Source of the DNA: Robiginitomaculum sp.
GTDB taxonomy: Bacteria; Pseudomonadota; Alphaproteobacteria; Caulobacterales; Maricaulaceae
Reading direction: 5' to 3'
Length of the DNA stretch: 64,000 nt
NCBI GenBank assembly: GCA_002733905.1
Contig: NVXK01000002.1
Span: 133,751-197,750 of the forward strand
Part shown: positions 1,940 through 28,389 of the stretch, piece by piece
Layout of the letters: every line of letters begins with the position of its first letter
Numbering within the stretch: the stretch's first letter is position 1
Position numbers and translations under genes: made by a program
Notes under the pieces: model-generated
What the model saw: the letters and a program-made list of their open reading frames with translations, nothing else
Told to the model about the DNA's origin: nothing
Database searches by the model: none

Positions 1940-3517
1940 ATGAGGAATGAAGACCAACATGCCCCCCTCCCGATTCGCCTGCTTCAGGCCTTGGGTGAAC
2001 TTGCCCACCAATTACAAATCGAGCGCGGGTATACGGCCTTGTTCACCGATAGTGATGGTGAGCTTTTCAGTGATGAATTACGGGCGCAATATAAAGCCAG
2101 CGACCAATCCATTGATGCCGTCAAAGACTTAGTGACAGCCATCCCAGATCCAGAAACAATATCATGGGTACGTAAACTCATGATTATGCAAGGCAATAAA
2201 TCCGAACTTATCGCCCACCGTGAAAAAGTACAAAATGGACAATTGGAATTTGCGCAAGCCATTAATGTATATACCTACAAGTCCCTTTACCCGATTTTGG
2301 ATATAAATATTGAAATTGCCCTCAGCATAGATGGCGTGAATCCGACAAAAGTCAGTGCCTATTCCAACTTTTTGCAATGGAAAGAACGGGTCGGGCGGGA
2401 GCGTGCATGGGGGGCGCACGGATTTTGTTCCAAAGTTTTCAAAAACCGTGAATTTACAGAACGTATGCTGAGCCTGATTGAAGAACAAGCAGCCTGCAAG
2501 CGTACCTTTATGTCTCTGGCAACAGAACGCCAGAAGCTCGAAGTAACTGAAATTCTCGGAGGATATGTCATGGAATGTTTGGAGAACATCCACGACCAAC
2601 TTTCTGATTCTAACCAAGCGGAAGATTTAGAAACTCTGTCTCCCATTACTTGGTTTGAACTCCTCACAGGAAAAATAGACCGGATGCATAACGCAGAAAT
2701 CAGCCTCGTCGAAAACCTGCACCCCGCCGTTCGTCCCCCGATTACAGTACGTGTTTTAGACGAAATACCCGCACACCTCGAAAAGCATATGCCGATCATT
2801 CAAGCACTCCCAGTCTTTTCAAAATTGGAAAGTGAAGATTTATACGCGGTGTTAAAACACGCAGACATACGTGATTATGAAAAAGGGAAGCTCCTATTCA
2901 TGCAAGGGGAAACCTTATCACGCTATTACCTTATTTTAGAAGGTTGGGTGAAACTTTACAAAAGTACAGGATCTGGAGACGAAGCCGTTTTACAAATGCT
3001 CTCAGCTGGGGAGTCTTTGATGGAAGCCGCCGTGTTCTTAGACATTCCGTCTCTGGTGAATGCGCAAGTGGTACAAAAAGTAAAATTGCTCTCCCTTCCC
3101 GCGCCAATCATTCGTCAAAGTTTGGTAGACAACAAAAAACTGGCGCTCAATATGATTGGCGGCCTCTCTATGCGTTCACAAGGCCTCATCCGCCAAATCG
3201 AACATTCTCGACTAAAGACAGCAACCGAGCGAGTTGGTTGGTTTTTACTCAAGCTCGGCATGGAGCAAAACGGCGGCAAAGCCAACGCCATCATTCTCCC
3301 TTATGACAAGTCCACTATTGCCTCTTATCTCGACATGACCCGCGAAACATTTTCGCGTACCCTCAAACGGTTCAAGAATAACGGGTTCAGTATTCAGAAT
3401 GACAAAATCACCAAACCAGATCCCAAAGCCCTCTGCCGTTTCTGCGATGAAAGCCTTGCAACCGCCTGCATCTATAAAGATGGAGACCTCTGCCCACAAA
3501 CATATCTCATGAAATAG
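1940..3517 (+). CDS. NIT-domain / CRP-FNR fusion transcriptional regulator
   Basis: 525-aa cytoplasmic regulator. Residues about 10-255 look like a NIT (nitrate and nitrite sensing) domain: LGELAHQLQIERGYTALF near the start and FLQWKERVGRERAWGAHGF in the second half are its two hallmark helices. Residues about 285-395 form a cyclic-nucleotide-binding-type beta roll (KGKLLFMQGETLSRYYLILEG), and about 415-490 a Crp-type winged helix (STIASYLDMTRETFSRTLKR). The last 30 residues hold four cysteines (C499, C502, C510, C518; C-X2-C-X7-C-X7-C). I chose the ATG at 1940, preceded by GAGAGAGAT, over an in-frame TTG at 1883 because the longer form would overlap the operator. Divergent from two narK genes, it is probably their nitrate-responsive activator (inference). 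NIT domains are known on ANTAR, histidine kinase and GGDEF proteins; I do not recall this CRP fusion. Confidence 0.88.
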   Translation: MRNEDQHAPLPIRLLQALGELAHQLQIERGYTALFTDSDGELFSDELRAQYKASDQSIDAVKDLVTAIPDPETISWVRKLMIMQGNKSELIAHREKVQNGQLEFAQAINVYTYKSLYPILDINIEIALSIDGVNPTKVSAYSNFLQWKERVGRERAWGAHGFCSKVFKNREFTERMLSLIEEQAACKRTFMSLATERQKLEVTEILGGYVMECLENIHDQLSDSNQAEDLETLSPITWFELLTGKIDRMHNAEISLVENLHPAVRPPITVRVLDEIPAHLEKHMPIIQALPVFSKLESEDLYAVLKHADIRDYEKGKLLFMQGETLSRYYLILEGWVKLYKSTGSGDEAVLQMLSAGESLMEAAVFLDIPSLVNAQVVQKVKLLSLPAPIIRQSLVDNKKLALNMIGGLSMRSQGLIRQIEHSRLKTATERVGWFLLKLGMEQNGGKANAIILPYDKSTIASYLDMTRETFSRTLKRFKNNGFSIQNDKITKPDPKALCRFCDESLATACIYKDGDLCPQTYLMK

Positions 3518-3884: not shown

Positions 3885-4229
3885 TTATTTCAAATTTACT
3901 TTGCAAACTTCAGAGCGTGTTAAAAACCGCTTACCCGTGCCATTGTCGAGCGAGAACATACCGCCTTGACCATCTACAACATCAATAATAAGTCGCGTAT
4001 GTTTCCAAACCTCATACTGTTTCCCGCCAATATAAAATGGAGCGCCGCCAATCTCTCCTAACTTCACGTCGTGGTCAGCTAATATAAATTCTCCATCAGC
4101 AAAACACATCGGAGAAGAGCCATCACAACACCCTCCTGATTGATGGAATATGACAGAGCCATGCTCGGCCTGAATTTGTTTTAAAAACTCAAGGGCCATC
4201 TCGGTGGCTGTAACCGCTTTTTTATTCAT
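3885..4229 (-). CDS. DUF779 family protein
   Basis: 114-aa soluble protein with the DUF779 pattern: HQSGGCCDGSSPMCF around residues 29-43 and FYIGGKQYEVWKHTRLIIDVVDGQGGMFSLD in the C-terminal half. The CC...C cluster suggests metal or thiol chemistry. The family is regularly found beside AcoD/ExaC aldehyde dehydrogenases and has no established biochemical role that I know of. Here it is the last gene of an ALDH - porin - DUF779 series on the minus strand, starting 68 bp after the porin stop, across a strong hairpin. The start is an ATG at 4229 with GAGAAAG upstream. Confidence 0.85.
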   Translation of the reverse strand: MNKKAVTATEMALEFLKQIQAEHGSVIFHQSGGCCDGSSPMCFADGEFILADHDVKLGEIGGAPFYIGGKQYEVWKHTRLIIDVVDGQGGMFSLDNGTGKRFLTRSEVCKVNLK

Positions 4230-4255
4230 TAAAACGCTTTCTCGTTTTCAAATTC

Positions 4256-4288
4256 ATTCTTTGGCTGGTACAAGCCCAGCCAAAGAAT
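4256..4288 (-). repeat. Strong hairpin between the porin and DUF779 genes
   Basis: ATTCTTTGGCTGG and CCAGCCAAAGAAT form perfect 13-bp arms around a 7-base loop, starting nine bases after the porin stop. On the minus strand it is followed by GAATTTG rather than a T-run, so it is more likely a transcript-stabilising or attenuating hairpin than a full terminator. Confidence 0.65.
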
Positions 4289-4297
4289 TTCATCGCC

Positions 4298-5005
4298 CTA
4301 AAGGCTAACTTTAAATGACAATACTACATGGTCATTAAAGCTTTTTCCCCCCGCAGAAACATCAGTATCCAAATATCTTAAATCCAAAATTACATTATCC
4401 GTTACGCTATAACTCGCCCCAATACTCCATGTGGCATAATCAGCATCAGAGTTTGATATTGTTTGTTTTGCGAGATTACCATCAACAGACCATTTATCAT
4501 TAATCTTATAACCTGCAACAGCCTCATAATAGACAGCAGGTTCATCAACACCAAAATAATCAGGGGTATAGAAAACATTTACCCCAAGGTTTACTTTATC
4601 AAAGCTGCGACCAATCGCACCTTTAAAATCGTATGTATCTAAATCAGAACCCGAAGGCGCATTTAAATATCCATAACGAATAGCCGTAAAGCTCACATCA
4701 AAATCATTTAGTTTTCCGCCCCAACCAGCCCACATATCGTATTCGACGTCGATTGGTACGCCAGCACCAAAATCAACATTTTCCGCCCCGACACCTGCAT
4801 AAAAACCATTTCCAAAAGCTGCGTTAACAGCCGCAAAAATGGCAGGGTTTTGATTTGACTGGCTCACGCCTCGCCAAACATATTCAGTTGCCCCTGTTAG
4901 TGTAACCGATATATCAACGCCGTTATCTTCCGCCAGAGCATTGCCCGAACATGCCAAACCAATACTGATCGCGAATATAGACATTTTAGTAGTTTTATTA
5001 AACAT
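4298..5005 (-). CDS. TorF-family putative porin
   Basis: 235-aa outer-membrane protein. A signal peptide ending in ...CSGNALAE covers residues 1-26. The mature part opens with DISVTLTGATEYVWRGVSQS, the hallmark of the TorF/Gcw_chp family, and continues as amphipathic strands ending in an FKVSL-type terminal strand. It would form a small outer-membrane barrel. The gene lies between the aldehyde dehydrogenase and the DUF779 gene, all on the minus strand, so it may admit an alcohol, aldehyde or related substrate (inference from context only). Confidence 0.85.
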   Translation of the reverse strand: MFNKTTKMSIFAISIGLACSGNALAEDNGVDISVTLTGATEYVWRGVSQSNQNPAIFAAVNAAFGNGFYAGVGAENVDFGAGVPIDVEYDMWAGWGGKLNDFDVSFTAIRYGYLNAPSGSDLDTYDFKGAIGRSFDKVNLGVNVFYTPDYFGVDEPAVYYEAVAGYKINDKWSVDGNLAKQTISNSDADYATWSIGASYSVTDNVILDLRYLDTDVSAGGKSFNDHVVLSFKVSL

Positions 5006-5119
5006 GGTGTGTCCCCTATAGTTTATTATGCATGCTCATTTAAGCAAGCAGCATGCGAACTTGTAGCTCTCCTTTTACCAAAGAGAGCCAGTTTTGAGAG
5101 TCATTCGTCTAAATTGGGT

Positions 5120-6610
5120 TTAGAAAAAACCGAGCTTGTTTGGGTTATAGCTCACCAAAAGATTCTTGGTTTGCTGGTAATGACCAAGCATCATTTTGTG
5201 GTTTTCACGGCCAATCCCGGATTGCTTGTAACCGCCAAATGCAGCGTGAGCTGGATACGCGTGGTAACAATTTGTCCAAACACGGCCCGCCTGTATAGCG
5301 CGGCCAAAACGGTAACATGTATTGGCATCACGAGACCATACACCCGCGCCAAGTCCGTAAAGTGTATCATTGGCAATTGCCAAAGCTTCTTCATCCGTTT
5401 TAAAGGTCGTCACTGCGAGAACAGGGCCAAAAATTTCTTCTTGGAATACCCGCATATCATTCGTGCCCTTCAATACGGTTGGTTGGATATAATACCCACC
5501 CTTCATTTTTTCACTCAACTTAGCAGGCCCCCCGCCGATAAGAACCTCGGCACCTTCTTTGCGACCAATATCAATATAGGATAATATCTTTTCATATTGC
5601 TCTTTTGAAGCCTGCGCACCAACCATGGTTTTTGCGTCTAGCGGATCATCTTGAACAATGGCTTCAATCCGCTTTAAGCAGCGCGCCATAAATTCTTCAT
5701 AAATATCTTCGTGGATAAGGGCACGGCTTGGGCATGTGCAAACTTCGCCTTGATTAAAGGCAAACATAAGAAGCCCCTCAATAGCTTTATCAAGAAAAGC
5801 ATCGTCTTCGGCCATAACATCTTTGAAGAAAATATTGGGAGATTTGCCGCCAAGCTCGACCGTGGACGGAATAAGGTTACTTGCTGCATACTGCATAATC
5901 AGGCGACCTGTTGTCGTCTCGCCAGTAAAGGCGATTTTGGCAATGCGTGTACTACTCGCGAGCGGTTTGCCAGCTTCGAGACCAAAACCATTGACGACAT
6001 TTAAAACACCTGGGGGCAATAAATCGCCAATGAGTTCCATCAACACCAAAATTGACGCGGGAGTTTGTTCCGCAGGTTTTAGAATGACACAATTACCCGC
6101 CGCCAAAGCAGGTGGGATTTTCCAAGACGCCATCAAAATCGGGAAGTTCCATGGAATAATTTGGCCAACAACACCTAATGGTTCGTTAAAATGATAAGCA
6201 ACGGTATCAGCATCAATTTCACATACAGAACCTTCTTGTGCACGAATTGCACCCGCAAAATACCTAAAATGGTCAATCGCGAGCGGAATATCGGCTGCCG
6301 TCGTTTCGCGGATCGGTTTACCATTGTCCCACGTTTCTGCTTCAGCCAATAAATCTAGATTGGCTTCCATAACATCAGCAATTTTTAGCAAAATATTGCT
6401 GCGTTCTGTCACGCTTGTTGCGCCCCATGCATCTTTAGCAGCATGAGCAGCATCGAGTGCAAGTTCAATATCCTTAGCATTTGACCTTGGAATTTGGCAC
6501 AACACTTTGCCGTTAACGGTTGTGGTGTTGTCAAAATATTTTCCATCCGCAGGTTCTACCCACTTGCCGCCAATATAATTCCCGTATTTTTTCTTGAATT
6601 TAAATGCCAT
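5120..6610 (-). CDS. exaC: NAD-dependent aldehyde dehydrogenase (ExaC/AcoD type)
   Basis: 496 aa, normal length for the family. It oxidises an aldehyde, probably acetaldehyde, to the acid with NAD(P)+. The catalytic set is intact: N155 in IIPWNFPI, E252 in VELGGK, and the nucleophile C291 in [11 protein letters not shown]. The N-terminus [14 protein letters not shown] is typical of ExaC/AcoD enzymes. The start is an ATG at 6610 behind GGGAGG. An 18-bp TGTCGCA/TGCGACA palindrome lies 91 bp upstream, and the next gene upstream encodes an AcoR-like activator, so induction by the aldehyde or its parent alcohol is likely. The product, acetate, would feed the acetyl-CoA synthetase encoded 1.5 kb further along. 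Confidence 0.93.
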
Positions 6611-6700
6611 TCTTAGCCTCCCTTAATTTCTTATGATGGAAGAATACTGGCCTTAAAATTTAGAACTGTCATCATGCCCGCACCTACGCACATCAAATCC

Positions 6701-6718
6701 TGTCGCAATTATGCGACA
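6701..6718. promoter_or_regulatory. AcoR-type activator binding palindrome upstream of the ALDH gene
   Basis: TGTCGCAATTATGCGACA: seven-base perfect arms (TGTCGCA / TGCGACA) around a four-base centre. This matches the TGTnnC-N6-GnnACA type of upstream activating sequence used by AcoR/MimR-like regulators. It lies between the regulator gene and the ALDH gene, 91 bp before the ALDH ATG. I see no good -24/-12 sigma-54 promoter after it. Confidence 0.7.
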
Positions 6719-6792
6719 CATTCCGACCAGAATATGCTCATTAATGAAAAGGCAGAGTAAAAAACAAGTTTTTACAAACTATGCATTGCCGC

Positions 6793-7773
6793 CTAGGCAT
6801 TGCCGTTAAATTTTTTGATTTTACGGTGCAATGTTGAACGGCTCATTCCTAATGAACGTGCGGCTTTACTAACATTCCCTCCAGAACTTGCCATAACCTG
6901 CTGAATAATTCTAGATTCTGAGTTAGGGATACGCTGTGCAGTATTTATGCTATCTCCGTAAATTTTTGCCAAAGGAACAGGGTTGAGAAAATCGTCATCA
7001 TCAAGACCATAACAGCGCCGTGCCCGCCGCGTTGCCCCTACAACAAGACCATCTGCATCAACCGCAAGCAATGCCGTGCCTTGCCGATCTGTGAGCGTTG
7101 AAACGCGATCTTCTTGTGGAGCTGCAAATACAATTTGCGCGTATGAGAAATGATTTCGAAAATGCTCTGTCTCAATCCTCCGCGCAGCATCAACAACAGC
7201 TAAAGAGATCAAATTACCAAACTCGTTCGTAAGATCAGCGCGACACGATGAAACATCTACAACGGCAATTAACTGACCATGATGATCAAAAATTGGAGCC
7301 GCAGTACATGAAAGCGCTGTGTTTTTTGAATGATAGTGTTGATCTTTGTGAATGGTAAGTGAGCGTTCTTCGGCGAGGCATGTACCGATCCCATTTGTAC
7401 CCTCACGGTCTTCACCCCACAATACACCTGTCCACAACCCCCATTCGTTGAATATTTCATCATCCTGTACTGCGCCGCGTCTGGAAACAGGGACGCCATT
7501 TTGATCTGCGAGCAATACACAACAGCCAGAATTTCCAACCGCGAGAAACAGCCTATCCAAGCAAGGTTCTGCTATATTTAAAAAAGCCCCCATACGTTCA
7601 CGGCTTTGCTTTAATTCATATTCACTCAGGCGTTCTGGTGCACGGTGTTCCGCTGGGTTAAGATTGTATAGCTCTTTTGAACGTTGCCATGATGCCGTAA
7701 CAGCATTCCGAGCCGCACCGTCATTCGACAATGCCTGCTCTATTTTTTCTGCATGGTCATTAATCGTGTTCAT
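6793..7773 (-). CDS. AcoR-like GAF / Fis-type HTH regulator lacking the AAA+ domain
   Basis: 326-aa regulator, about half the length of classical AcoR. An N-terminal ligand-sensing region typical of AcoR (residues about 20-210, with SWQRS, GIGTCLAEERSLTIH and LSCTAAPIFDHHGQLIAVVDVS) passes through a short linker straight to a Fis-type helix-turn-helix at the C-terminus (NVSKAARSLGMSRSTLHRKIKK). No Walker A, Walker B or GAFTGA motif is present, so it cannot remodel sigma-54 polymerase. The ATG at 7773, behind AAGGG, is preferred over an upstream in-frame start at 7815. It most likely binds the palindrome at 6701-6718 and controls the ALDH unit. Confidence 0.85.
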   Translation of the reverse strand: MNTINDHAEKIEQALSNDGAARNAVTASWQRSKELYNLNPAEHRAPERLSEYELKQSRERMGAFLNIAEPCLDRLFLAVGNSGCCVLLADQNGVPVSRRGAVQDDEIFNEWGLWTGVLWGEDREGTNGIGTCLAEERSLTIHKDQHYHSKNTALSCTAAPIFDHHGQLIAVVDVSSCRADLTNEFGNLISLAVVDAARRIETEHFRNHFSYAQIVFAAPQEDRVSTLTDRQGTALLAVDADGLVVGATRRARRCYGLDDDDFLNPVPLAKIYGDSINTAQRIPNSESRIIQQVMASSGGNVSKAARSLGMSRSTLHRKIKKFNGNA

Positions 7774-8080
7774 TTTTCCCTTACCAACGAATATTGATTT
7801 CGCATTTTTATACAAATACCCAATGATTTAAACGTCTCTTATAAATAGATATAGAAAACAATCAAACCATCGCCATTCCAAAACATTTTAGGCGTGTATA
7901 AACTTTAGCATAAGAACTTTTAGCAAATTTATATAGCACATTTTAAAGTCACATCTAAAAATATTTCATTTTGACCATGGTTTACATTGACGGGCAGAAG
8001 AGACAGTTTGGATAAATCAACGTGCAAAACCTACGAGAAGGCCCGAGTGGATTAGAAAGTTCTAAAGCTCACGGCCCATA
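7774..8080. other. Intergenic stretch upstream of the AcoR-like regulator
   Basis: AT-rich spacer that should contain the regulator promoter. I see no open frame worth calling, no RNA gene and no repeat beyond the acs terminator at its right end. Confidence 0.4.
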
Positions 8081-8118
8081 AAAAAATACGTTCAACATTG
8101 TTATATATGTTGAACGTA
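8081..8118 (-). terminator. Intrinsic terminator of acs
   Basis: TACGTTCAACAT and ATGTTGAACGTA form perfect 12-bp arms around an 8-base loop. On the minus strand the stem is followed by a run of seven T (TATTTTTTTA). It starts about 45 bp after the acs stop. Confidence 0.85.
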
Positions 8119-8162
8119 AGTTAGGGGAGAGACCTAAAGAAGGCCTCGTTGGTTGTCGTGCA

Positions 8163-10106
8163 TTATCTGTTCATTCTATTTTCTATCAACGCCTCCACCA
8201 CTTCAGGATCTGCAAGAGTTGACGTATCTCCGAGGTTGCTAAATTCGTTTTCGGCAATCTTACGAAGTATCCTACGCATGATTTTCCCTGATCGGGTTTT
8301 GGGAAGACCGGGCGCGAATTGAATAAAATCGGGCGTCGCAATTGGACCAATTTCGCTACGCACATGCTTGACCAAGTCCGATCTAAGCTGATCATCGGCG
8401 TCAACATCGATACGGACAGTTACATAAGCGTATATGCCCTGCCCTTTAATATCGTGGGGACAGCCCACAACGGCTGCTTCGGCGACGGCATCATGAGACA
8501 CGAGCGCACTTTCAATTTCGGCTGTACCTAATCTGTGTCCTGATACATTTATCACATCATCGACACGACCTGTGATCCAGTAAAACCCATCCTCGTCGCG
8601 GCGGCAGCCATCACCCGTAAAGTAATTGCCCGGATAGGCACTAAAATATGCATTTAAAAACCGATCATGGTTTCCGTAAATCGTCCGTATTTGCCCTGGC
8701 CACGAATCTTTAATGATAAGATTGCCGTCATTTGCTCCGTCTAGTTCTTTGCCATTAGAATCAACCAGCGCCAGCTCAATGCCAAAAAACGGGTGAGAAC
8801 CAGCCCCAGGTTTCATATTGGTCGCACCAGGAAGCGGCACGATCATAGTCCCACCAGTTTCCGTTTGCCACCATGTGTCTACGATTGGGCAGCGGCCTTC
8901 ACCAACAACATGAAAATACCATTCCCATGCTTCTGGGTTAATCGGCTCACCAACGGTTCCAAGAAGCCGAAGCGATTTTCTGGATGTCGCACTCACAGGT
9001 TCTGAACCTTCACGCATCAAAGCACGAATGGCCGTTGGCGCGGTGTAGAATATGGTCACTTGATGCTTATCACAAACTTGCCAAAATCGGCTCGCATCTG
9101 GATAGGTCGGAATACCCTCAAACATTAATGTTGTTGCCCCATTCGCAAGCGGGCCATACACAATATAAGTGTGCCCCGTTACCCAGCCAACATCTGCTGT
9201 GCACCAATAGACATCATCTTCTTTCAGGTCAAAAACATATTCATGGGTCATTGACGCCCATACAAGATAGCCACCTGTTGTGTGCAAAACCCCTTTGGGT
9301 GTACCCGTAGAACCAGACGTATAAAGAATAAACAAAGGGTCTTCTGCATTCATAGGTTCTGGCGCGCACGCGTCGCTTACCTCTTGTAACGCATCATGTA
9401 AATACACATCGCGCCCAGACACCATAGCAATATCAGCGCCTGTACGTTTCACAACCAATACGGCTTCAACAATATCGGCAATGTCACAGGCTTTGTCACA
9501 ATTAATTTTTAAGGGAACTTTCTTTGATCCACGCAAGCCTTCATCAGCCGTAATAACGAATTTAGAATCGCAATCTGTAATGCGGCCAGCAAGTGCTTCT
9601 GGAGAAAACCCCCCAAATACCACAGAATGTACTGCGCCAATACGCGCACACGCGAGCATCGCAAAAGAAGCCTCTAAGATCATAGGCATGTAAATGGTGA
9701 CGCGGTCACCTTTTTTAACGCCCATTTTTTTGAGTACATTCGCAAATTTACAGACGGCCTTATAAACGTCGCGGTATGTTAAAGACTGACTTTCGCTCGG
9801 GTCATCACCTTCCCAAATTATTGCGACTTTATCACCACGTGTTTCAAGGTGACGATCCAGACAATTTGCGGACACATTCAATATACCGTCTGCGTACCAT
9901 TCAGTCCTGAAGTCGCCCTCTTCCCATGAGACGTTCTTTGCTTTCGAATATGGTTTTATCCAGTCGAGACGTTTTCCATGCTCTGCCCAAAAAGCTTCTG
10001 GGTCAGCAATCGAATCCGCGTACATTTTGTTATATAATTCTGGTGTCAAATTTGACTGCTCCGCAAATTTTTGCGGAACAGGATAGGATAATTTCCCGTG
10101 TGACAT
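8163..10106 (-). CDS. acs: Acetyl-CoA synthetase
   Basis: 647 aa, standard length. It activates acetate with ATP and CoA through acetyl-AMP. The adenylate-forming core motif [12 protein letters not shown] is present in the middle, with the downstream TGD and the C-terminal [17 protein letters not shown], whose SGK lysine is the usual acetylation-controlled catalytic residue. It lies 27 bp downstream of a DcaP-like porin gene on the same strand, probably co-transcribed, and ends at a clear intrinsic terminator. The flanking CrbS/CrbR-like pair and ActP-like symporter point to a dedicated acetate assimilation block. Confidence 0.95.
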
Positions 10107-11604: not shown

Positions 11605-12246
11605 ATGGCAGATTTGCCTAAAATACTCATTATAGAGGATCACCCACTGTTTCAGGATGCCCTTGTGACAGCACTAGAAGAGTGTTGCCCGCTCGGTGTT
11701 CAAACTCAAAAAGCCTCTTCTTTAACAGATGGGCTCGTTTTGATTGATCAGGTTTTGTTTAATTTGATATTGCTTGATTTAAGCTTATCCGATTCTAAAA
11801 ATTTTGAAGGTCTAGGCCGCATCCATCTGGCTAACCCTAATTGTCCAATTGCCATCGTTTCCGCAACGGAGCATACAGCCGCATATCAAATGGCAAAGTC
11901 ACTGGGTGCATCTGGATATCTTCCCAAAAGCATGCCATTTGATCTTATGGTCACAGCACTGGCCAATATCCTTAACGGCGAAACTTCATTTCCGCCAATG
12001 CTTGAAGATGAAAATACAAGCCAGCAAGATGTGAACGCACGCCTTGCAAGCCTAACACCAGCCCAGCGGCGTGTTTTATCCGGTCTTTCAGATGGATTAT
12101 TAAACAAACAAATAGCCTTTGAGATGGGGATTACGATTGCGACGGTTAAAGCCCACATGACGGCCGTTTTTCGCAAGCTGGGGGCAACGAACAGGACACA
12201 GGCTTTACTTATTTACAAAGACTCAACGGATATGAGAAGAAACTAA
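11605..12246 (+). CDS. crbR: LuxR/NarL-family response regulator (CrbR-like)
   Basis: 213 aa. Receiver domain at residues about 5-125, with the acidic pair E11/D12, the phospho-acceptor D58 in LILLDLSL and the conserved lysine in YLPKSMP. The LuxR-type helix-turn-helix follows at about 145-205 (LTPAQRRVLSGLSDGLLNKQIAFEMGI...). The stop codon overlaps the stop of the convergent hybrid kinase by four bases, and the gene is divergent from porin-acs. In Vibrio and Pseudomonas the CrbS/CrbR pair switches on acs; the arrangement here fits the same role, though the symbol rests on context and domain type. Confidence 0.85.
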   Translation: MADLPKILIIEDHPLFQDALVTALEECCPLGVQTQKASSLTDGLVLIDQVLFNLILLDLSLSDSKNFEGLGRIHLANPNCPIAIVSATEHTAAYQMAKSLGASGYLPKSMPFDLMVTALANILNGETSFPPMLEDENTSQQDVNARLASLTPAQRRVLSGLSDGLLNKQIAFEMGITIATVKAHMTAVFRKLGATNRTQALLIYKDSTDMRRN

Positions 12247-15200
12247 TTCTTCACATCCCCATATACACATTGCCCTAAGAATTTATAGAGCTGGCGCGGG
12301 CTCACAGGTTTTTTTAAGAACATGATATTTTGTGCATCAGCCGATATTTCAACCGCCCTGTCGGTATTTGCTGTTAACAAACAAACATTATCATGATGTG
12401 ATAGCCTATGTCTTAGAGACGTTATTATGTCTATGCCATTACACGTATCGCGCAAATGGTAATCGGCAATCACGATGTCTATCTTATTGGATTGGACGAC
12501 CGAAATGGCTTCCGTTTCATTCTTTGTCAGAAACACCAAACAGCCCCAATTTTTTAACAATGCTTGCATGCCTTCTAAAATTTCTGGCTCATCATCAATA
12601 CATAAAACGGCTAACCCCTTTGGCAATACAGTAGAAAAATGTGTATTGTCGTCATGCCGTGAGTTCTCATGTATTGCTTTGTACGAACGCGGTACAGTGA
12701 CGCTAAAAACACTGCCTTTACCGACTTTTGACCGTAGATTAGTAGACGCACCCAACAGTCCAGCCATGCGCCTCACAACAGATAACCCAAGACCAATGCC
12801 TCTATCGCCATCAAAGTGATACGCGTCCAAACGGTGAAATTCATCAAACACGCGTTTATGATCTTCGGTTGGGATACCCCGTCCCGTATCCCAAATCTCA
12901 ATCCTTACATTATTTTTACCGTCCCTTCGCGCTCCGATGAGAATCCCGCCATTTTGGGTATATCTGCGGGCGTTTGAAACATAATTTCGCAATATGCTTG
13001 TTAGTAAATTTGGATCAGAAAACACGCTTAACCGTGTTGGCGCCAAGCGAATATCAAGGCCTGCCTTTTTTACCATAGGAAAGGCTTCGTCGTAAATATC
13101 TTCCAATAAAGGTCCCAAGGGCAGAATTGTTGGTTGTGCATTTATACCGCCGTGATCCAGACGGGAAATATCGAGCAAACCCTTCAATAATTTATCCGCT
13201 GATTGTATGGCATAATCTGCTTTTTCAACCATTTTTTCGACATTTTTATTGCTATTATCATTGGTTTTCACAGCCCCTAAAAACAACCGAGCTGCATTAA
13301 GCGGTTGAAGTAAATCATGGCTAGCGGCCGCTAAAAAACGAGTCTTGGAGGCATTTGCCTCTTCGGCAGTTTTTCTGGCAGCATCAAGATCATTCGTCAT
13401 AGCTTCAAGTGATTTGGTTCTCTGCCGAACCCGCATTTCCAGTGTTTCATTAGCTTCTACTAATGCCTGCTCTCTTTTTTTATCATCAGTAACATCATTA
13501 AACGTCGTTACATATCCGCCGCCAGGCATAGGGCTTCCGACAATTCTTATATACCGTCCGTCCGGGGTTTTTCGTTCATAAACATATGCGCGCCCAGTCT
13601 TCATATGCGATATGCGGCGTTCTAGCTGATCATCAAGGTTTTCAATATGCATCCAACCATTGTTGATATTATATTCAATCAACTGGATAATCGGCACGTG
13701 CACTTTTACCAAATCATCTGGATATTTAAAAAGTTCAACATAGGCACTATTCCAAGCAACAAGGCATTGCTGACTATCGACAACACTAATGCCTTGCGGA
13801 ATATTTTCCAACATTGACTGCAACATATTCCTGTCAAAACGCTCGGCTAACGTTTGTTGATCAAGAACAGTAAGCAAGTCACTAAACTCTACATCCCCAC
13901 CACCTACCGCCGAGAGCATAACAACCCGAGCCGACGATGCGCCTATAGCGCTAGCCAACAGACGCTCAGTTCTTTGTACCAATTGCCATTCGGCTTCAAT
14001 TGCCCCTGAAATTTTTACATCGAACTCTTCCCCAATTTTCTCGAATGCATGGGCAACAGCATCTGGATTAAGAAACCGCGACGCTAAGGTTCTTAGCCCG
14101 TCGGGCGAAATATTACTCTTTTGTGCAGATTGATGAATACTCTTTGGCAAAAATACATCGCCGTCATAGACAAATGCCGCAGATTGTACGCGGTCGCGCA
14201 ATCGCTCTCGCGTGGAAAGAGAAACAATAACAAACAAAAGAAAATTTACCGAAAGGCTCCAAACAACACCGTGCGTCAAACTATCCCCGAAACCAAACCC
14301 AAAAATACGATATGGATCCAACCATGTAGGAAGGTTTTGCGCAAAATTCTCGTAGCCGACAAGTGCTGGAATAAAGAGTGTGAAAGACCACAAAACAAAC
14401 CCAGCAATTAGCCCAGCGAGCACGCCGCTACGTTTGCCTTGCCTCCAATAAATAGCGCCAAGGAGCGCGGGTATGAATTGTGCAGCAGCGGCGAATGACA
14501 ACAAACCAATTTGTGCAAGAGCAGCATTGTTCTGAGCAAAGCGGTAATAACCGTAAGCCAATATTAGAAGTATAACGATTACAGAGCGACGCACGACAAG
14601 CAATTGCGAGCTTGCACCACTTAGCTGTCTCAACCGACCCGTTCGAATTAGAACGGGGACAATAATATCATTGGTTACCATGGTTGACAAAGCGATCGTT
14701 GCAACAATGACCATTCCCGACGCCGCCGAAAACCCTCCCAAAAACACAAAAAGCGCTAATACGCTTTTGCCCTGCGATAAAGGTAATTCCAGCACGTAGA
14801 GGTCTGCGGGTACATTCGTTGGCAAAATTACCAAGCCTGCAATTGTTATCGGTATGACGACAATACTGGTTATGAGTAGATATACTGGGAACAACCACCG
14901 CGCCCGCCGAATTTCAGCTTTGTTATAACGCTCAATAATCGCCACATGAAACTGGCGCGGCAGACAAATTATTGCCGCCATTGACAGCAATAAACTCGTC
15001 ATTGCCCGCCCAGAAATATCCATGTTTGAGAAACCAGATGCCGCTGCCTTAACCGCCGCATAAGGTTGATTTATGAGGACCGTTATCGACAAAATACACA
15101 CAGCGATCAGGGCCGTAATTTTAATTAAGCTTTCAAAAGCGAGAACATGCATCAGACCTGGATTATGTTTTGTCGTATCAGGGTTACGCGCACCAAATAT

Positions 15201-15716
15201 AATGGCGAAAATTGCAAGAGCAATTGCAGTGATTAAAACGGTTTCATTTGCCGTATCCGTTTTAATGACGCCCCCTCTGGAAACTAAAGCTTCAAAGCTC
15301 ATACCTACGGATTTCAACTGCAACGCAATATAGGGCAGACTGCCAGCAACGGCCATAATTGTAGCAAGGACAGCAACACTTCGACTTTTCCCGTACCTAG
15401 CAGACAAAAAATCAGAAATCGAGGCTATACTCTCGCGCTGGGTTATGTCACCGATCCGAATTAATATGCTTGGAAAAAACATAACCACCAAAGCAGGGCC
15501 AACATAAATCCAAACATAATCCCAGCCACTGGTCGCCGCCGAGCCAACGGCGCCAAAATACGTCCAAGACGTACAATATACGGCCAAGGCCAAGGCATAT
15601 ACAAACGGACTCTGTGGTTTCTTTTTCAGGTTTGCGACTTTGTCCCGTTTCCAGGCAATGGCAAACAATCCGAGAATATAAAGAGATGTAATAATGAGGG
15701 TTACCCAGATCGGCAT
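12243..15716 (-). CDS. crbS: Hybrid histidine kinase with N-terminal sodium:solute symporter domain (CrbS-like)
   Basis: 1157 aa. Residues 1 to about 500 form a roughly 13-helix SLC5/PutP-like transporter domain. A linker leads to a PAS domain (QGISVVDSQQCLVAWNSAYVELF...), a coiled coil, a HisKA domain with the phospho-histidine in ASHDLLQPLNAARL, an HATPase with DTGRGIP and GIGLGLSVV, and a C-terminal receiver with D1085 in IDIVIADYHL. It should sense acetate flux or availability at the inner membrane and phosphorylate the adjacent LuxR-type regulator. The start is an ATG behind AAGGAG. The gene is convergent with its presumed partner and downstream of nothing obvious, so it probably has its own promoter. 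Confidence 0.9.
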   Translation of the reverse strand: MPIWVTLIITSLYILGLFAIAWKRDKVANLKKKPQSPFVYALALAVYCTSWTYFGAVGSAATSGWDYVWIYVGPALVVMFFPSILIRIGDITQRESIASISDFLSARYGKSRSVAVLATIMAVAGSLPYIALQLKSVGMSFEALVSRGGVIKTDTANETVLITAIALAIFAIIFGARNPDTTKHNPGLMHVLAFESLIKITALIAVCILSITVLINQPYAAVKAAASGFSNMDISGRAMTSLLLSMAAIICLPRQFHVAIIERYNKAEIRRARWLFPVYLLITSIVVIPITIAGLVILPTNVPADLYVLELPLSQGKSVLALFVFLGGFSAASGMVIVATIALSTMVTNDIIVPVLIRTGRLRQLSGASSQLLVVRRSVIVILLILAYGYYRFAQNNAALAQIGLLSFAAAAQFIPALLGAIYWRQGKRSGVLAGLIAGFVLWSFTLFIPALVGYENFAQNLPTWLDPYRIFGFGFGDSLTHGVVWSLSVNFLLFVIVSLSTRERLRDRVQSAAFVYDGDVFLPKSIHQSAQKSNISPDGLRTLASRFLNPDAVAHAFEKIGEEFDVKISGAIEAEWQLVQRTERLLASAIGASSARVVMLSAVGGGDVEFSDLLTVLDQQTLAERFDRNMLQSMLENIPQGISVVDSQQCLVAWNSAYVELFKYPDDLVKVHVPIIQLIEYNINNGWMHIENLDDQLERRISHMKTGRAYVYERKTPDGRYIRIVGSPMPGGGYVTTFNDVTDDKKREQALVEANETLEMRVRQRTKSLEAMTNDLDAARKTAEEANASKTRFLAAASHDLLQPLNAARLFLGAVKTNDNSNKNVEKMVEKADYAIQSADKLLKGLLDISRLDHGGINAQPTILPLGPLLEDIYDEAFPMVKKAGLDIRLAPTRLSVFSDPNLLTSILRNYVSNARRYTQNGGILIGARRDGKNNVRIEIWDTGRGIPTEDHKRVFDEFHRLDAYHFDGDRGIGLGLSVVRRMAGLLGASTNLRSKVGKGSVFSVTVPRSYKAIHENSRHDDNTHFSTVLPKGLAVLCIDDEPEILEGMQALLKNWGCLVFLTKNETEAISVVQSNKIDIVIADYHLRDTCNGIDIITSLRHRLSHHDNVCLLTANTDRAVEISADAQNIMFLKKPVSPRQLYKFLGQCVYGDVKN

Positions 15717-19380: not shown

Positions 19381-22300
19381 TCACTTAATCCGCGCACGGT
19401 ATTTTACTATAAAACTTGGATCAGGATCACCTCTGGCCATAGCGCCTTTGGGATTGTAACACACATAAGTGACATTTGGGTCATACCCAGCGCTAGGCGT
19501 ATAGGTGCAGGCTGCAAAGTTTGCTGGTGCACTTGCCCCGTTCCAATACCCGACATCTGTCGCATATGTGAATGTTAATGCAGAGCTTGAATCACTAAAG
19601 ACAACGGGGTGAGTTTCTGGCCCCGCGCCGTCAAAATCACCATTATAAAATTCTACTTCGGGCGAAATTTTATCAATGAGGCTTATACTGTCATTATCTG
19701 CCAGCCCAGCACCCGTATTGGTTACAGTTAGAATATGGGTTATGTCATTCCCAGGCAAAGCGTAAAGCCCCTCACTATTTGGGTCATAAATTTCTACAGA
19801 TTTTACAGCGTTAAGCGTAGCACTGCCACACACATTCACTTGCAGTTCCGCAATTGACAAAGCAATTTTTCTCGGCAGCACAACACGAATATAACGACCA
19901 TTGGTTACAACAGGCAAAGTCGTCTGCACAGAAGCTGCACCCAAATCTTGATATTTAAAAACCGTAGTATTGTTTAATATTGAATCCAGATCATCAGCTG
20001 CGTCACCTGTATTAGGAAAAGGCGTTTGCGAAACAAATAAATGAAAACCATCCAATCTATCTCCGCAACAATTCGTGCGATTCCAAATACTGATTGTGTC
20101 AATAGCTTTACTTTCGCCCAAATCTAAATTCCACCATTGATGCAATAATACACCAGTATGCGTGTATCCCGCCCCGTTCGTATTACCATCAATAGCGTTT
20201 GGGGCGAAATAAGCAGAACCTGAATAATTTGTACTTTGTGTAGCCGTTCCGCTTGTCGCAACCTTTTCGAATACCGCGGGACATGTCGCGGTTGGCGTTG
20301 TCTTCGCAATCACTGTCAAAGCATAGTCTTCAACCTCGCCGTCAGTTGCGATACCATCAGAGCCTAGCCCTGCTGTCGTTGACCACCTTAGTCGTGCATA
20401 GGTCTGAGAAATTGTTGCATTTGAGGGCGCACGCACAGCAAGGCGAATTTTCCCTGCTGTTGGGTCAAGGTCTAATGCGCCATTATCTTGGAGATCAGTA
20501 GCAATTTGATCACCAGATGTCGTGAAATTTCCATCGCCGTTCCAATCAAGCCATGCCTGTAAATATCCACCACTTCCCGACACATCAACGTTCAGATAAC
20601 TGGTAATACCTTGTGTAAAATTAGGAAACACAACACCGTCTTCATCATCATTTCCATCCGTATCATCCCCATCCGCATTCGTACTTGGCTGTGCCGCCAC
20701 CTCCACGTCAGGAGCTGAAGCGCCTAAATATATGGCACTATCAATAATGTGTGACGGGATGCCGTAACTGGCAGGCGCATCTGAAAGATCTCTTGTGAAC
20801 TCGGTGATCGTGAGCGCATAATCCTCGACCTCCCCATTATCGGCAATATTACTCCCACCTAGCCCCGCTTGTGTGCTGTAGCGAAAACGAGCAATCGTTG
20901 AAGAAAGTGTCGCGTTTGGCGGCACGGCTACAGATAGGTTTATGGTTTGCGCTCCACCGCCTGCAGGTGGCAGTACATCCGTTGCTATACGTTCGGATAT
21001 CCCATCAACAATATCATTGAAATCACCATCTCCGTTCCAGTCAATCCACGCCTGCAAATACCCCGCACCATTTACAATTACGGGGATAGTGGTTGTGACA
21101 GCTTGTTTAAGTGTTGGCATTGCCACACCATCATCACTCCCGTCGGTGTTTGCCGCTACCGTTCGCGCTTTGTTAGCAGAAGTATAGTCATTTGTAGATC
21201 CTAAATATGTTTCGACAGCACTTGTTCCGAATGTGTAAATATGTTGTGCAACACCATATGATTCTGGGCCATCCGAATGGTCATAAGCACATAAACTCAA
21301 ATACTTACTATATGGGCCTGTAGAACCTGCACGGTGCACTTTCGTATGATTAAAGTCTACATTTGCAGTGTAAGCAGCTACGGCTTGATTTGACCCTGAA
21401 CTATAACCTCCATTACGTATACGATAGTTAGAATCATTTGTGCCTGAAGCGGATATATATGAATTTGGGTTTCCCCCACCAAAATCTCCATCAACTGTGA
21501 AATTTCCACTCATATTTTGAAACGACCCACCGCCATTATTGGAGAACCCATGATAATATTTCTCTGTGTCTGAAACACCCGACACATAGGTTTGTAGTGA
21601 GGTTAGGCGCTCACTAAAATCCAGCTCATACGATTGGGACATAGTGATTTTAAAACCTATTGCACCAGGATTTGCCTTTAATGTCGTCCATTGCCCACTC
21701 GCATTCACGGTCATGCCCATAATGGAGTTTGTAAATAATGCAGTAGCAGAGGTAGAGCTTGTCAGCGATAGACCTTTACACATTTGATCATGTGTTGTTG
21801 TTGCGAATGGAGGAGGCGTGTAAATGGCCACAGCAAGATAGCCCGTGCCGTTAGGGATTGAAACGTTTGAAAACGTACCAAATGACGATGTCCCAAGTAC
21901 GGTCGGCACACCTGTAAAGTCCCCGTTTGCTGAATACAAAAGTCGATAGAATTGATTAGTTGCAATTGGAGGTAGATTATCAAATTTCATAAATACATTA
22001 CCAACACTATTTGTATTTTGAATTTTCCATTCTCGCGTGGCACGGTTCGTATAGATCAATGTATTTATATCTGTTGTTGTCGTTGTTGATTCTGACCCAT
22101 TATCGTGTCCCCATACTAAATATTGTCCATTTGCAAGTGATGTCCGTGAGCCACCAACATTGGTACTTGTAAAGTCATTCGTTGTTGCCACGGTCAACGC
22201 GCCAGAGCTTTCCATAGATTTACTAATACGTTGGTGCAAATCCGTGTCTTCACCGATACCAGCAATTGCGTATTTATATGTCGCGTCAATCGTATAAAGA

Positions 22301-23136
22301 TTAGTCCCATTCCGTTCATAATTTCCAACTGTACTATCCAGCGTCATACCGTATTTTAGGGCGAGATAAGACTGAATAGACTTTTGCTCTGCGGCGCTGT
22401 TGGCAGTGTCGTAAATAATGACTTCTGAAATACGGCCATTATAATATGCAGCGTCCCAGTTACTCCGACCGATATAATTATTTGAACGGGAAACAATATT
22501 AATTGTCCGCGTATTTTGGTTCCCTAAAGACAGGCCTTTGGAATATGCTGTCGCATTGTCTGCACCTGCCCCCTGAATTACAGAAAACATATGTGATTTA
22601 TTATTTGTAATTTGTGAGAGGAAAAAGATATTTGGTGCGGCAGTTCCACTACCATGTGAACTATAAACAAGGTTATTGCTAGTTGATCCGCGTGCCATGA
22701 AAATATTATCACTCCTTGGCCCATTGCCAAAACCAAAAAACCTTGCCCAATACTGGCTCGTTGTCGGCGTAGCAATTACATAGGCTGAAAGCCCATTGGT
22801 AAAATCTGCAAACCCTGCACCATTTGATGCAAAATGATCTGTGCCATCAAAATAAATAGAAGGGTTGAAATTGTATTCTGTTGGATTGGTGTCGAGCGTT
22901 GGTGTATCGCCAGCTATAAAATCAGGCTGCGATACAGAGCCTTTGTTATCCCATGAGGTAATTGTGCAATTATCAGTGCTGCAATTAAGGCCTTCGTCAG
23001 CTTTTAACCACAACACTTGTGCATGTGCCTGTTGCGAAAATACGAAAGCAATCATTGAAACAAGTAAAATGATATATGTAAAAAACTTCAAACGCATTTC
23101 ATCTCTCTTTTCATCACTCACAAACTCGTTTCTCAT
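19381..23136 (-). CDS. Large secreted multidomain protein (LamG-like, GEVED x2, discoidin-like, DUF11)
   Basis: 1251 aa. After a signal peptide (hydrophobic core at about 18-34, QQAHAQ) comes a LamG-like/sialidase-like region with QVLWLKADEGLNC and SEVIIYDTANSAAEQKSIQSYLALKYG, familiar from surface proteins of marine bacteria. Two GEVED domains follow, each ending NGEVEDYALTI or DGEVEDYALTV; then a discoidin/F5-8C-like region (NAIDGN...WWNLDLGESKAIDTISIWNR) and a final DUF11-like domain ending KYRARIK. The ATG overlaps the stop of the barrel gene as ATGA, implying translational coupling; an internal ATG at 23100 is an alternative that shortens the N-terminus. Probably displayed on the cell surface for glycan or protein binding (inference). 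Confidence 0.82.
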   Translation of the reverse strand: MRNEFVSDEKRDEMRLKFFTYIILLVSMIAFVFSQQAHAQVLWLKADEGLNCSTDNCTITSWDNKGSVSQPDFIAGDTPTLDTNPTEYNFNPSIYFDGTDHFASNGAGFADFTNGLSAYVIATPTTSQYWARFFGFGNGPRSDNIFMARGSTSNNLVYSSHGSGTAAPNIFFLSQITNNKSHMFSVIQGAGADNATAYSKGLSLGNQNTRTINIVSRSNNYIGRSNWDAAYYNGRISEVIIYDTANSAAEQKSIQSYLALKYGMTLDSTVGNYERNGTNLYTIDATYKYAIAGIGEDTDLHQRISKSMESSGALTVATTNDFTSTNVGGSRTSLANGQYLVWGHDNGSESTTTTTDINTLIYTNRATREWKIQNTNSVGNVFMKFDNLPPIATNQFYRLLYSANGDFTGVPTVLGTSSFGTFSNVSIPNGTGYLAVAIYTPPPFATTTHDQMCKGLSLTSSTSATALFTNSIMGMTVNASGQWTTLKANPGAIGFKITMSQSYELDFSERLTSLQTYVSGVSDTEKYYHGFSNNGGGSFQNMSGNFTVDGDFGGGNPNSYISASGTNDSNYRIRNGGYSSGSNQAVAAYTANVDFNHTKVHRAGSTGPYSKYLSLCAYDHSDGPESYGVAQHIYTFGTSAVETYLGSTNDYTSANKARTVAANTDGSDDGVAMPTLKQAVTTTIPVIVNGAGYLQAWIDWNGDGDFNDIVDGISERIATDVLPPAGGGAQTINLSVAVPPNATLSSTIARFRYSTQAGLGGSNIADNGEVEDYALTITEFTRDLSDAPASYGIPSHIIDSAIYLGASAPDVEVAAQPSTNADGDDTDGNDDEDGVVFPNFTQGITSYLNVDVSGSGGYLQAWLDWNGDGNFTTSGDQIATDLQDNGALDLDPTAGKIRLAVRAPSNATISQTYARLRWSTTAGLGSDGIATDGEVEDYALTVIAKTTPTATCPAVFEKVATSGTATQSTNYSGSAYFAPNAIDGNTNGAGYTHTGVLLHQWWNLDLGESKAIDTISIWNRTNCCGDRLDGFHLFVSQTPFPNTGDAADDLDSILNNTTVFKYQDLGAASVQTTLPVVTNGRYIRVVLPRKIALSIAELQVNVCGSATLNAVKSVEIYDPNSEGLYALPGNDITHILTVTNTGAGLADNDSISLIDKISPEVEFYNGDFDGAGPETHPVVFSDSSSALTFTYATDVGYWNGASAPANFAACTYTPSAGYDPNVTYVCYNPKGAMARGDPDPSFIVKYRARIK

Positions 23137-26100
23137 TGTCCATCCGTAGAAATCATATCAAGAAGTTTACGTGCGGAGTTTTGATCAAATTTAATACGAA
23201 ATTTCATATAAACCCCCTTTTGACTATAAACAGCCGCAAGGAAATCATCTTCCGTATACCCTCTCAAATTATACCCCAATGAGAGCCAGACATTATCAAC
23301 AGGGGAAACCCCAACAGAGGGACCATAAGCATAATATACAGCATCTGAGCTATGCGAATATTGCGCCATACCATGGAGCCCAAAATCAATTTTCTTGGTA
23401 ATATCAAAGCGTGTTTCCGCGCCCAGAACTTGGCTAAACCCAGCATATTTCACCGTACCGAATGTATTTTCCACATATTTCAAACCATAATTTCCTGACA
23501 TTTGCAAACGTGGTGCGATCTGTGCATTAATTGCAAAATTATTTACAAGTTTCACCCGCGCCTTCCCCAAAGCATCCTCATTATAGCTCATGTCAAAACG
23601 ATCAAATAATACAATGCCGCCGCCATTTGGTCGCCAAGACGTCCCTAAACGGCTCACTAAACGTGTTGTCGCCCCCCCTGAACTCGCGTCATGACTAAGT
23701 CCCAGTTTTGCGTCTCTAACGCCAAGACGAAAGGCACCTGCAAATGATAAGTCTTCTGTAAATTCACGCGCTGCAGATAGGCTTAAAATATACTCGTCAT
23801 ATTGTTGCGTTTTACGGCCTTCTACCCGCGCTGAACCGCTTGTATTATTCGTACGGTACCCCACGCCCAGATAGGCCGTCATAAAGTTATCATTCGCATA
23901 TAACGACGAAAGTAAAGCATTTGGCGTGACGCTAGCAATGGCACTTGTTTGGCTTAACACATGGTGATTAGACAAACCGACTGACGCGCTCCATAGCTCA
24001 TCAAGTTTAAATTGTTGATCAAGGCCAAAGGTTGCGCCTATGCGTTTGCTTGATTGCCCCGACATTAAATCACTACCTGCGGTCATTTGCATACCTGACC
24101 ATGGTTGGAAACTGACGCCGATGGCTGTATTGTTCGTCCCTAGCTGACCCGACAAAATATCGTGAGTAATCCGTACACTCGCTTTCGAGGTGAGCGTTTT
24201 ATCAAGCCCTAACCGTGTACGCTGTGGATGACCGCTCGCATCTTTTTTGCCAGACAATGGCTGTTCATGAGAAACACTAAAACTTGCGCCATGTGCGGGC
24301 ATATTATAGCGCAATCCAGCTATCGCCAGCAAAGAGCTTCGACTGGCTGCGCCCACAAACTGATCTTTGACCTGACGAAAACCTATATTGGCGTTCAAGC
24401 TCTCACTTGTCTGTGAAACGGAAATCTCCGATGCGTTACGCAAATCACCTGTACCTAGGTTTTTCTCTTGATAATAACTCGCTTTAACCGCACGCTTACC
24501 ACGGCGCCCCGTCTTTTTACTTACGAATTCTTGAATTTCATAGATGATATTAGCCCCATAGCGCCGCATATCATTTGTATTGGCACTGCTTTGCCCTAGG
24601 CCAAAACCACCTTCTTCTTGACGGATATAGGCATCAGCCGTTATTTTGTCACTTGTGTGAGTCACTTCGGCTAAATAAGCATTTGCAGCTTTATTCTGTA
24701 CACCATTTATACGGTTTGCACTACGCGCATACTCTACACGAACCTCCGTACTTTCACTAAGTTCGGCGACAAGGTCGACACCAATCATATCGGAACTTAT
24801 GCCCGCTGCACTTACGCTGCCGTTTTCTTTTACAAATGTTGAACCTAGCTTTATTTTTCCCCGCAGTGTGCTTGTTTGTACACGTCCACCATAAGAGATA
24901 TTCCGTTCTGCCCCCGAAGAGGTTTCATAATCCACGACGATCACATTGGGATTGAAACTAGCATCACTTACATCGACGGGTAGACGGAAAATAATTTCCC
25001 CGCTGAAATTATCCAATGTGTAATCAAGATGGCGAATAAGGTAGCGAGAATTTAAAACTTTATCTGAACGTACACGGTCTCGCGTTTCAATGGTGATAGT
25101 TTCCGAGTTTTGCAAAACATTTTGATGTGACAATTGATAAGGGCCGCTCGTACCATTCGCAGCAATTTCATCTTTGGTAAAGCCTTGATTGGTTTCAGCG
25201 GCAAAAGCAATCGCCTGAAAATTTGCACCTAAATATTCAGATTTAATCCCTGAAAGATGGCGCGAATATTTAGTCAACACCCCTTCTGTAATATTGGTAT
25301 TAAAATCACCAAACATTGCATAAAAACTTGCTTTCTCAATCTTTACATAAAGTGGGTATTGGCTTGCCGCCTCCAACCCATTATTAGAACGATCACCATA
25401 AAGTGTATAATATGCATTCGGATCAATTTGTGTCTCGAAACCTTCATTCTGTGCTCCACGGCGTTTAGAGGTATCAACAGCCAAGGTCAGCAAGTAATTG
25501 CCCTTCACCAAACCTTTGGCAAAAAACGCAACACGCCCATTTTTTTGTATTCCCTCATGCACACCAACGCGGAGCGCAACACTTTTATTGCTTAGTTTGT
25601 CATGCGCCAAACTCCCCTCAGCCAGACCAACGATGATCCAATCTCGTTTTTCTGGCGCAAGGTACATATGCAGCAAAAGCTTACGCCCATTATCGAGCTT
25701 GACATTGATTGAAACCTTACCCGTTTTCAGCGTCGGCTCCAATAAAATCCTTGCGATACCATCAGTGCCTACAGATACGGTCGTTTGTGCAGACAGCGGC
25801 GCAACAAGTTCGTCCCTACTTAAGAATTTGCTATTTTGATAAAGTTCATAAGGTGTCAAAACCTCTACATCTACGATACGCCCCTCATGTACAGGACGCC
25901 CTGTTTCGTCTTCTATGCGTAGCGCGAGTTCAGGTTTCGTACGACCATCTGCAACTAGAACAGACTGATCTGGAAGCGCTGAGACACGCGCAATGTTTTT
26001 AACAAAATAAATTTCCTGGTTTAATGTCTGGATACGCTTGCCAGCATTATTTTTGACCACAACTTCAAAAATATTCTTCCCATCAAGCAAGTCAACACCA

Positions 26101-28232: not shown

Positions 28233-28389
28233 GTCTATCCTCACACGATTTACGAAGAACACATTTATGTTACCTGCGAAATTATTTTAATTTTCCCACT
28301 GTGTATGTGCTTGTTAAGAATGAAATACCTTCAATAAAACAGCGCAAAACATCCGTTCAGCACTGCTTTATTTGAAGCCTATTCAAACC

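Follow-up and report, generated by a model that had tools for sequence, protein, structure and literature searches.

Regulators of the CRP/FNR superfamily such as NarR are reported to replace NarXL in alphaproteobacteria (excerpt of PMC8139620). Bacillus Fnr is described as carrying a C-terminal [4Fe-4S] site built from C-X2-C-X4-C and an aspartate (excerpts of PMC3520743 and PMC8139620), and NasR, which has a solved NIT domain, is given as a nitrate-responsive protein in the available part of PMC7496416. Here we analyse a regulator gene that brings features of all three together, found in a 64,000-nucleotide stretch of Robiginitomaculum sp. DNA (contig NVXK01000002.1, positions 133,751 to 197,750; hereafter the window). 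Positions 1940–3517 (+ strand, ATG at 1940, stop included) encode a 525-residue protein, which we call NIT-CRP, with an N-terminal NIT domain, a CRP/FNR module and a short C-terminal tail with four cysteines. To our knowledge, it is not settled by what means NarR and similar CRP/FNR regulators sense nitrate or nitrite. Our best explanation, to which we give a probability of roughly 0.6, is that NIT-CRP activates the nar genes in response to nitrate or nitrite through its NIT domain and to oxygen or redox state through its tail, probably an Fe-S site.

An earlier note, made from the letters of the window, had claimed that NIT, cNMP-binding and Crp-type helix-turn-helix (HTH) domains share one 525-residue frame, and a Pfam search of that frame matched all three. 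The NIT domain (PF08376) spans residues 20–260 (1997–2719, +) and scored 116.4 bits, where the cut-off is 24.9 (E = 3.5e-33, model positions 1–238 of 239). The N-terminal half also matched when residues 1–277 alone were scanned (E = 6.2e-34), and both NIT-type helices quoted in the note are present in the translated frame. A cNMP-binding-type beta-roll follows at residues 311–393 (2870–3118, +; E = 1.1e-14), then a long helix in the AlphaFold2 secondary structure at residues 399–425 (3134–3214, +), presumably the dimerisation helix given the CRP fold, and the HTH_Crp_2 DNA-binding domain at residues 430–500 (3227–3439, +; E = 5.2e-13) with the recognition motif ETFSR at 469–473. Beta-roll and Crp-type HTH together place the protein in the CRP/FNR superfamily; the C-terminus is HTH_Crp_2, and Pfam lists no ANTAR match. 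The frame closes with the cysteine tail C499-X2-C502-X7-C510-X7-C518 (3434–3493, +), a candidate Fe-S (or zinc) site. NIT-CRP is the sole NIT match in the source genome at E ≤ 0.001.

Among solved structures, only NasR (4akk) matched the N-terminal half (E = 1.3e-10). The AlphaFold2 model built from 54 sequences (mean pLDDT 89.8, pTM 0.63) shows a helical N-terminal domain joined to a CRP-type C-terminal module. In a VIA-align comparison with this model, NasR 4akk_B ranked first (Z 28.7, 263 aligned residues, root-mean-square deviation 4.1) and Aliivibrio fischeri FNR second, over residues 278–504 (Z 22.5). The 50 Foldseek matches listed for the model were all CRP/FNR-superfamily chains, and NasR surfaced with VIA-align. 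The best 19-residue Kyte-Doolittle window reaches 1.39; there is no long hydrophobic stretch, so the protein should be cytoplasmic. Taken from its sequence, NIT-CRP is very probably a soluble, cytoplasmic one-component regulator of nar.

A scan of 84,980 species, each represented by a single genome, gave 91 confirmed relatives and 80 returned loci, 77 of them full length (L088, L089 and L137 are partial). The scan patterns were derived from NIT-CRP proteins themselves, and remoter fusions may escape them. The 77 full-length homologues are mostly alphaproteobacterial, with a few from gammaproteobacteria, and 5 come from named isolates. The scan as a whole found relatives in Robiginitomaculum, Parvularculaceae, Kordiimonadales, Emcibacter and its kin, Asticcacaulis, Pseudaquidulcibacter and others, and among the Gammaproteobacteria in Exilibacterium and five metagenome-assembled genomes. 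Counting the source genome itself, full-length homologues occur in 9 of 200 genomes of the same order and, at the level of the phylum, in 3 of 398. No match in the plasmid collection covered at least 80 per cent of the query. The earlier note had suggested surveying genomes for the same domain pair and its link to narK and narG, and this survey found the linkage in most loci. A redundancy filter at 95 per cent identity reduced 88 rows to 72 members, the basis of the conservation counts below. Alignment A2 holds 54 of these 72 rows and alignment A3 holds 34 of those 54; L063, L095 and L109 were left out of A2 by hand, so cysteine invariance within A2 is biased. At the level of the class, 64 of 385 genomes have a NIT domain, which usually lies in a frame some 700 residues long; of 31 such frames that we compared, 24 carry a chemoreceptor motif and none looks CRP-like. 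The open-licence literature matches listed on NIT (PF08376) with Crp, FNR or narK included no description of the fusion. NIT-CRP is thus a set of known modules in a combination for which we found no description, plus a possible second sensor.

The regulator is encoded next to nitrate respiration genes. On the opposite strand, and divergent from it, lies narK1 (445–1776, −), a major facilitator superfamily transporter of the NarK kind by NCBIfam TIGR00886 (223 bits, below the cut-off of 311.7). Next comes narK2 (2–442, −), also upstream of the regulator on the opposite strand and cut by the window edge (535 residues in the genome); these are the two narK neighbours named in the earlier note. 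Beyond the edge we named by eye narG, narH, narJ, narI, a porin gene, moaA and a mog/moaB-type gene. With this gene order, the regulator stands divergent from the whole narK1K2GHJI operon. The arrangement recurs: where 700 bp or more of upstream sequence is available (72 loci), a divergent narK-type gene lies within 700 bp in 62, and where 5.5 kb or more is available (58 loci), narG is on the upstream side in 56. In 17 loci the narK-type label is loose, the nearest such gene being only 23–28 per cent identical to NarK1 of the window. Downstream, moaA lies within 800 bp of the regulator in 27 of 70 loci. As a separate observation, L098 has a cbb3 oxidase (ccoN, ccoO; 4714–7116) about 2.5 kb downstream of its NIT-CRP gene, and its upstream side ends at the contig edge.

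Between narK1 and the regulator we found an FNR-like box that the earlier note did not mention, GTGACCTAGATCAA (1868–1881), which agrees with TTGAY-N4-RTCAA at 9 of 10 positions. Across the 69 NIT-CRP loci with enough upstream sequence to scan, 57 have a perfect box upstream, as against 0.14 of 69 in shuffled sequence. This contrast is no formal test, the shuffles being mononucleotide and the loci related to one another. The E-x-x-S-R motif is the FNR-type recognition helix, and its residues E469, S472 and R473 are each conserved in 72 of 72 members. By this rule the helix fits the TTGAY-N4-RTCAA box, so that recognition helix and predicted site at the target promoter are both of the FNR type. 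From these sequences we infer that NIT-CRP is the protein that binds the box. In G014 and G004, NIT-CRP is the sole HTH_Crp_2 protein at E ≤ 1e-5, yet the best sites there score 9 and 7 of 10. The proposal that NIT-CRP is a one-component regulator of nar, made when the gene was first noticed, is well backed by domains, synteny, recognition helix and box.

Two familiar identities do not suit the protein. It is unlikely to be a cAMP receptor: at position 373, which we take to be the equivalent of CRP Arg82, 69 of 72 members have V, A, I, S or L. We reject a canonical FNR of the E. coli type, as there are no conserved N-terminal cluster cysteines and any cysteine at all occurs in that stretch in only 6 of 72. 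No named NCBIfam CRP family (FtrB, Fnr, NtcA, FixK, CRP) reached its cut-off for the window protein, the best being FtrB at 123.7 against 211; FtrB models are matched by E-value in 54 of 54 aligned members.

The four-cysteine tail, which likewise goes unmentioned in the earlier note, suggests a second input. Its cysteines are nearly invariant (C499 in 70 of 72 members, C502 and C510 in 72, C518 in 71), and the spacing C-X2-C-X7-C-X7-C is kept in 66 of 72. Of the six exceptions, two have X8, one reads as X4, L063 is cut off at a contig end, L109 contains an ambiguous letter and L095 has F for the first cysteine. The published C-terminal [4Fe-4S] site of Bacillus Fnr makes an Fe-S reading of the tail reasonable, though the spacing differs. 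We set the chance that the tail is an oxygen- or redox-sensing Fe-S site at about even. Separately, a different short tail, approximately C-X2-C-X5/6-C, ends the NIT-less CRP-type proteins L147, L179, L191, L233 and L237; it is nearer to the Bacillus Fnr spacing, and cysteine clusters at the C-terminus may be more widespread.

The four-cysteine tail also occurs without NIT. A CRP-plus-tail profile had matches in 68 of 385 genomes of the class, and among the 30 loci returned a similar tail was present in 8 NIT-less proteins, one of which (L178, the same as L205) is one cysteine short, and in none of the other NIT-less ones. The source genome has a NIT-less paralogue with a cysteine tail (L159; G000:C28:14732-15478, −). 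This gene and a ccoNOP-type cbb3 oxidase operon are divergently arranged, ccoN being the adjacent gene, and a perfect FNR box separates them. It is 56 per cent identical to NIT-CRP over residues 284–511, and its tail has four cysteines with a last spacing of 4, plus a further cysteine. Of the other NIT-less tailed loci, whose flanking genes we named by eye, L199 lies before a cbb3 oxidase operon, L203 has non-adjacent nar genes, L198 and L204 have neither, and the remainder stand at nar genes, as discussed below. Together with the paralogue, 6 of these 9 loci have a perfect box upstream. Because the tail goes with respiratory switches with or without NIT, we read it as an oxygen or redox input. 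At L200 (4812–7739, −) a single 975-residue frame takes the place of narK1 and narK2 and is probably a fused NarK1-NarK2.

The history of the fusion was explored with a quick tree built from the CRP part, tail excluded (68 rows, including 35 of the 54 NIT rows; L147, L152, L154 and L206 left out). All NIT rows together with L027, L199 and L204 form one group (support 97), and six tailed NIT-less rows form a separate group (support 96), with the paralogue L027 nested among the NIT proteins. A clade of NIT rows excluding the three NIT-less rows is weakly rejected (approximately unbiased test, p-AU 0.024); excluding only L027 is not rejected (p-AU 0.064), nor is a single origin of all tailed proteins (p-AU 0.68). 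On these sequences, loss of NIT in L027 is likely.

Other sensors of oxygen and nitrate were sought in the host genomes. In 9 of 11 NIT-CRP genomes (the source genome, G073, G014, G004, G092, G926, G928, G929 and G930) no FNR-type N-terminal cysteine motif was seen among HTH_Crp_2-matching proteins, a check that FNR-like proteins lacking an HTH_Crp_2 match, or encoded in missing parts of draft genomes, escape. Whole frames were checked, except for L235, for which the first 90 and last 60 residues were used. A NarX/NarQ-type PilJ sensor domain was not found in the source genome, and the E. coli positive control was detected. This is consistent with the suggestion in the earlier note that the regulator would replace NarXL.

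The mechanism we propose starts with NarK delivering nitrate or nitrite to the cytoplasm, where it would bind the helical NIT domain as in NasR; the ligand-bound domain would then relieve or reposition the CRP module. The tail would hold an oxygen-labile Fe-S cluster beside the HTH, so that DNA binding would need low oxygen, as in Bacillus Fnr. NIT-CRP would thus work as an AND gate in one polypeptide, acting at TTGAY-N4-RTCAA when nitrate is present and oxygen is low, and activating the divergent narK1K2GHJI operon and probably its own gene. A single protein may in this way read both nitrate and the lack of oxygen. The NIT domain probably reads nitrate or nitrite directly. More tentatively, two independent sensors, NIT and a C-terminal Fe-S site, might replace FNR plus NarXL (or NarR) for nitrate respiration. 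NIT-CRP might then belong to a wider group of CRP/FNR regulators with a Cys4 tail, located at nar and cbb3 promoters of alphaproteobacteria and seemingly not yet described.

A number of observations, in this and the next two paragraphs, weigh against the two-input activator. The window's own box is imperfect, and a perfect box is missing from 12 of the 69 scanned loci. No narK match lies within 700 bp in 10 of 72 loci (L062, L106, L116, L117, L118, L120, L131–L134); other genes intervene in L118, L133 and L134, L131 has no nar match at all and L132 only narI, so neither has an intact nar operon nearby. L095 lacks C499. A canonical FNR motif is present in 2 of the 11 genomes, G866 and G927 (the proteins being L206, L229 and L234), which means that the tail does not stand in for FNR in every case.

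That last point also favours a simpler picture in which the protein responds to nitrate or nitrite only, while its tail serves the DNA-binding domain as a structural zinc site or a thiol-disulfide element and control by oxygen comes from another source. The four cysteines could bind zinc instead of Fe-S; a CXXC pair with two further cysteines at fixed spacing suits zinc too. We nevertheless consider this picture rather unlikely. The other 9 of 11 genomes yielded no FNR-type motif, the tail is kept in NIT-less proteins at cbb3 genes (the source genome's own paralogue and L199), where oxygen is the expected signal, and the Bacillus protein offers a C-terminal Fe-S precedent (PMC3520743, excerpt).

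The two-input activator also requires a NIT domain that senses nitrate or nitrite. The domain may instead have drifted, to another ligand or to a role in dimerisation or coupling only, which would leave an FNR-like redox regulator of nar. E28 and R29 are kept in 72 of 72 members, E154 in 68 and R155 in 71, and the last two correspond to E175 and R176 of NasR (residues as given in the excerpt of PMC7496416; N-terminal-half alignment with 4akk, counted manually). As an attempt to identify a nitrate pocket this does not discriminate: H23, Q26, E28, R29, E154 and R155 are equally well kept in the 31 NIT segments compared from other proteins, so the predicted pocket residues do not predict the ligand. 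The NIT domain of PA4520 binds neither nitrate nor nitrite, as stated in the available text of PMC6381276. Moreover, 4 of the 8 NIT-less tailed loci (L200, L201, L202 and L205) have, by eye, narK and narG genes immediately next to the regulator in divergent orientation, which shows that a regulator can occupy that position without NIT. Set against this are the strong linkage of NIT-CRP to nar, the near-invariance of the predicted pocket motif in the 72 members, though these were gathered with the fusion itself as query, and the identity of the nearest solved NIT, that of nitrate-responsive NasR (PMC7496416, in part). On balance we regard a drifted NIT domain as unlikely.

It is improbable that NIT-CRP acts mainly by repressing narK or its own gene until nitrate relieves the repression. 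Depending on where transcription starts lie relative to the FNR-like box, repression would be conceivable, but the excerpt of PMC8139620 describes ANR, DNR, FnrP and NarR as activating nar. A chance fusion, frameshift or assembly artefact is refuted by the 77 full-length homologues, which include 5 from named isolates, and by the presence of NIT, cNMP_binding and HTH_Crp_2 in 54 of 54 aligned members, the window protein included.

The window holds further regulators and metabolic genes. From 3885 to 10106 (−) lie, consecutively, genes for a DUF779 protein, a Gcw_chp protein, an aldehyde dehydrogenase, a GAF/Fis regulator and an acetyl-CoA synthetase. The regulator (6793–7815, −), between the aldehyde dehydrogenase and acetyl-CoA synthetase genes, combines GAF with a Fis-type HTH and has no AAA+ match at E 1e-6. 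A LuxR-type response regulator (11605–12246) and a PAS hybrid histidine kinase (12243–15716) come next, and the whole looks like an alcohol or acetate utilisation cluster. We considered the response regulator as a candidate NarL, which is unlikely given its position near the aldehyde dehydrogenase and acetyl-CoA synthetase genes and that no NarX-type sensor was found. Further on, 19381–28262 (−) holds two very long frames of 1251 and 1709 residues; GEVED and F5/8 type C domains occur in the first.

Among known systems, NasR of Klebsiella oxytoca (4akk) is likewise a one-component protein with an N-terminal NIT of the same fold. NasR binds RNA through ANTAR, as an antiterminator of the assimilatory nas genes, whereas NIT-CRP would bind DNA through its CRP/FNR module at respiratory nar genes and has the cysteine tail. 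NIT chemoreceptors share the Pfam domain and the predicted pocket residues, but their output is chemoreception and not DNA binding. NarR of Paracoccus is, like NIT-CRP, a CRP/FNR regulator of nar, but without NIT. The same holds for the NIT-less protein L011, which sits beside narK-like and moaA-like frames (by eye), has no Cys4 tail and falls on a long branch outside the NIT and tailed clades of the quick tree; L011 is only NarR-like and is not equated with Paracoccus NarR. NIT-CRP holds the NarR-like locus position, at narK and narGHJI. Since the candidate sensor can be recognised as a domain of the regulator itself, and cultured species have the fusion, the question of perception becomes directly testable.

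Compared with FNR of the E. coli type and alphaproteobacterial FnrL, NIT-CRP has the E-x-x-S-R helix and the TTGAY-N4-RTCAA site in common, and of the CRP/FNR structures listed for the NIT-CRP model, that of A. fischeri FNR scores best by Z. The cluster cysteines of FNR are N-terminal, where NIT-CRP has no conserved ones. Bacillus Fnr is closer in this respect, with its cluster cysteines in a C-terminal extension like the NIT-CRP tail (PMC3520743, excerpt). It has no NIT domain, and its C-X2-C-X4-C plus Asp differs from the C-X2-C-X7-C-X7-C of NIT-CRP, which may work in the same way despite the other spacing. The tail also indicates a class of regulators to which, at its cut-off, no NCBIfam model assigns the window protein. 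If the tail is an oxygen sensor, NIT-CRP would be a compact nitrate-and-anoxia switch for synthetic biology, and one protein would integrate two signals that in E. coli are split between FNR and NarXL.
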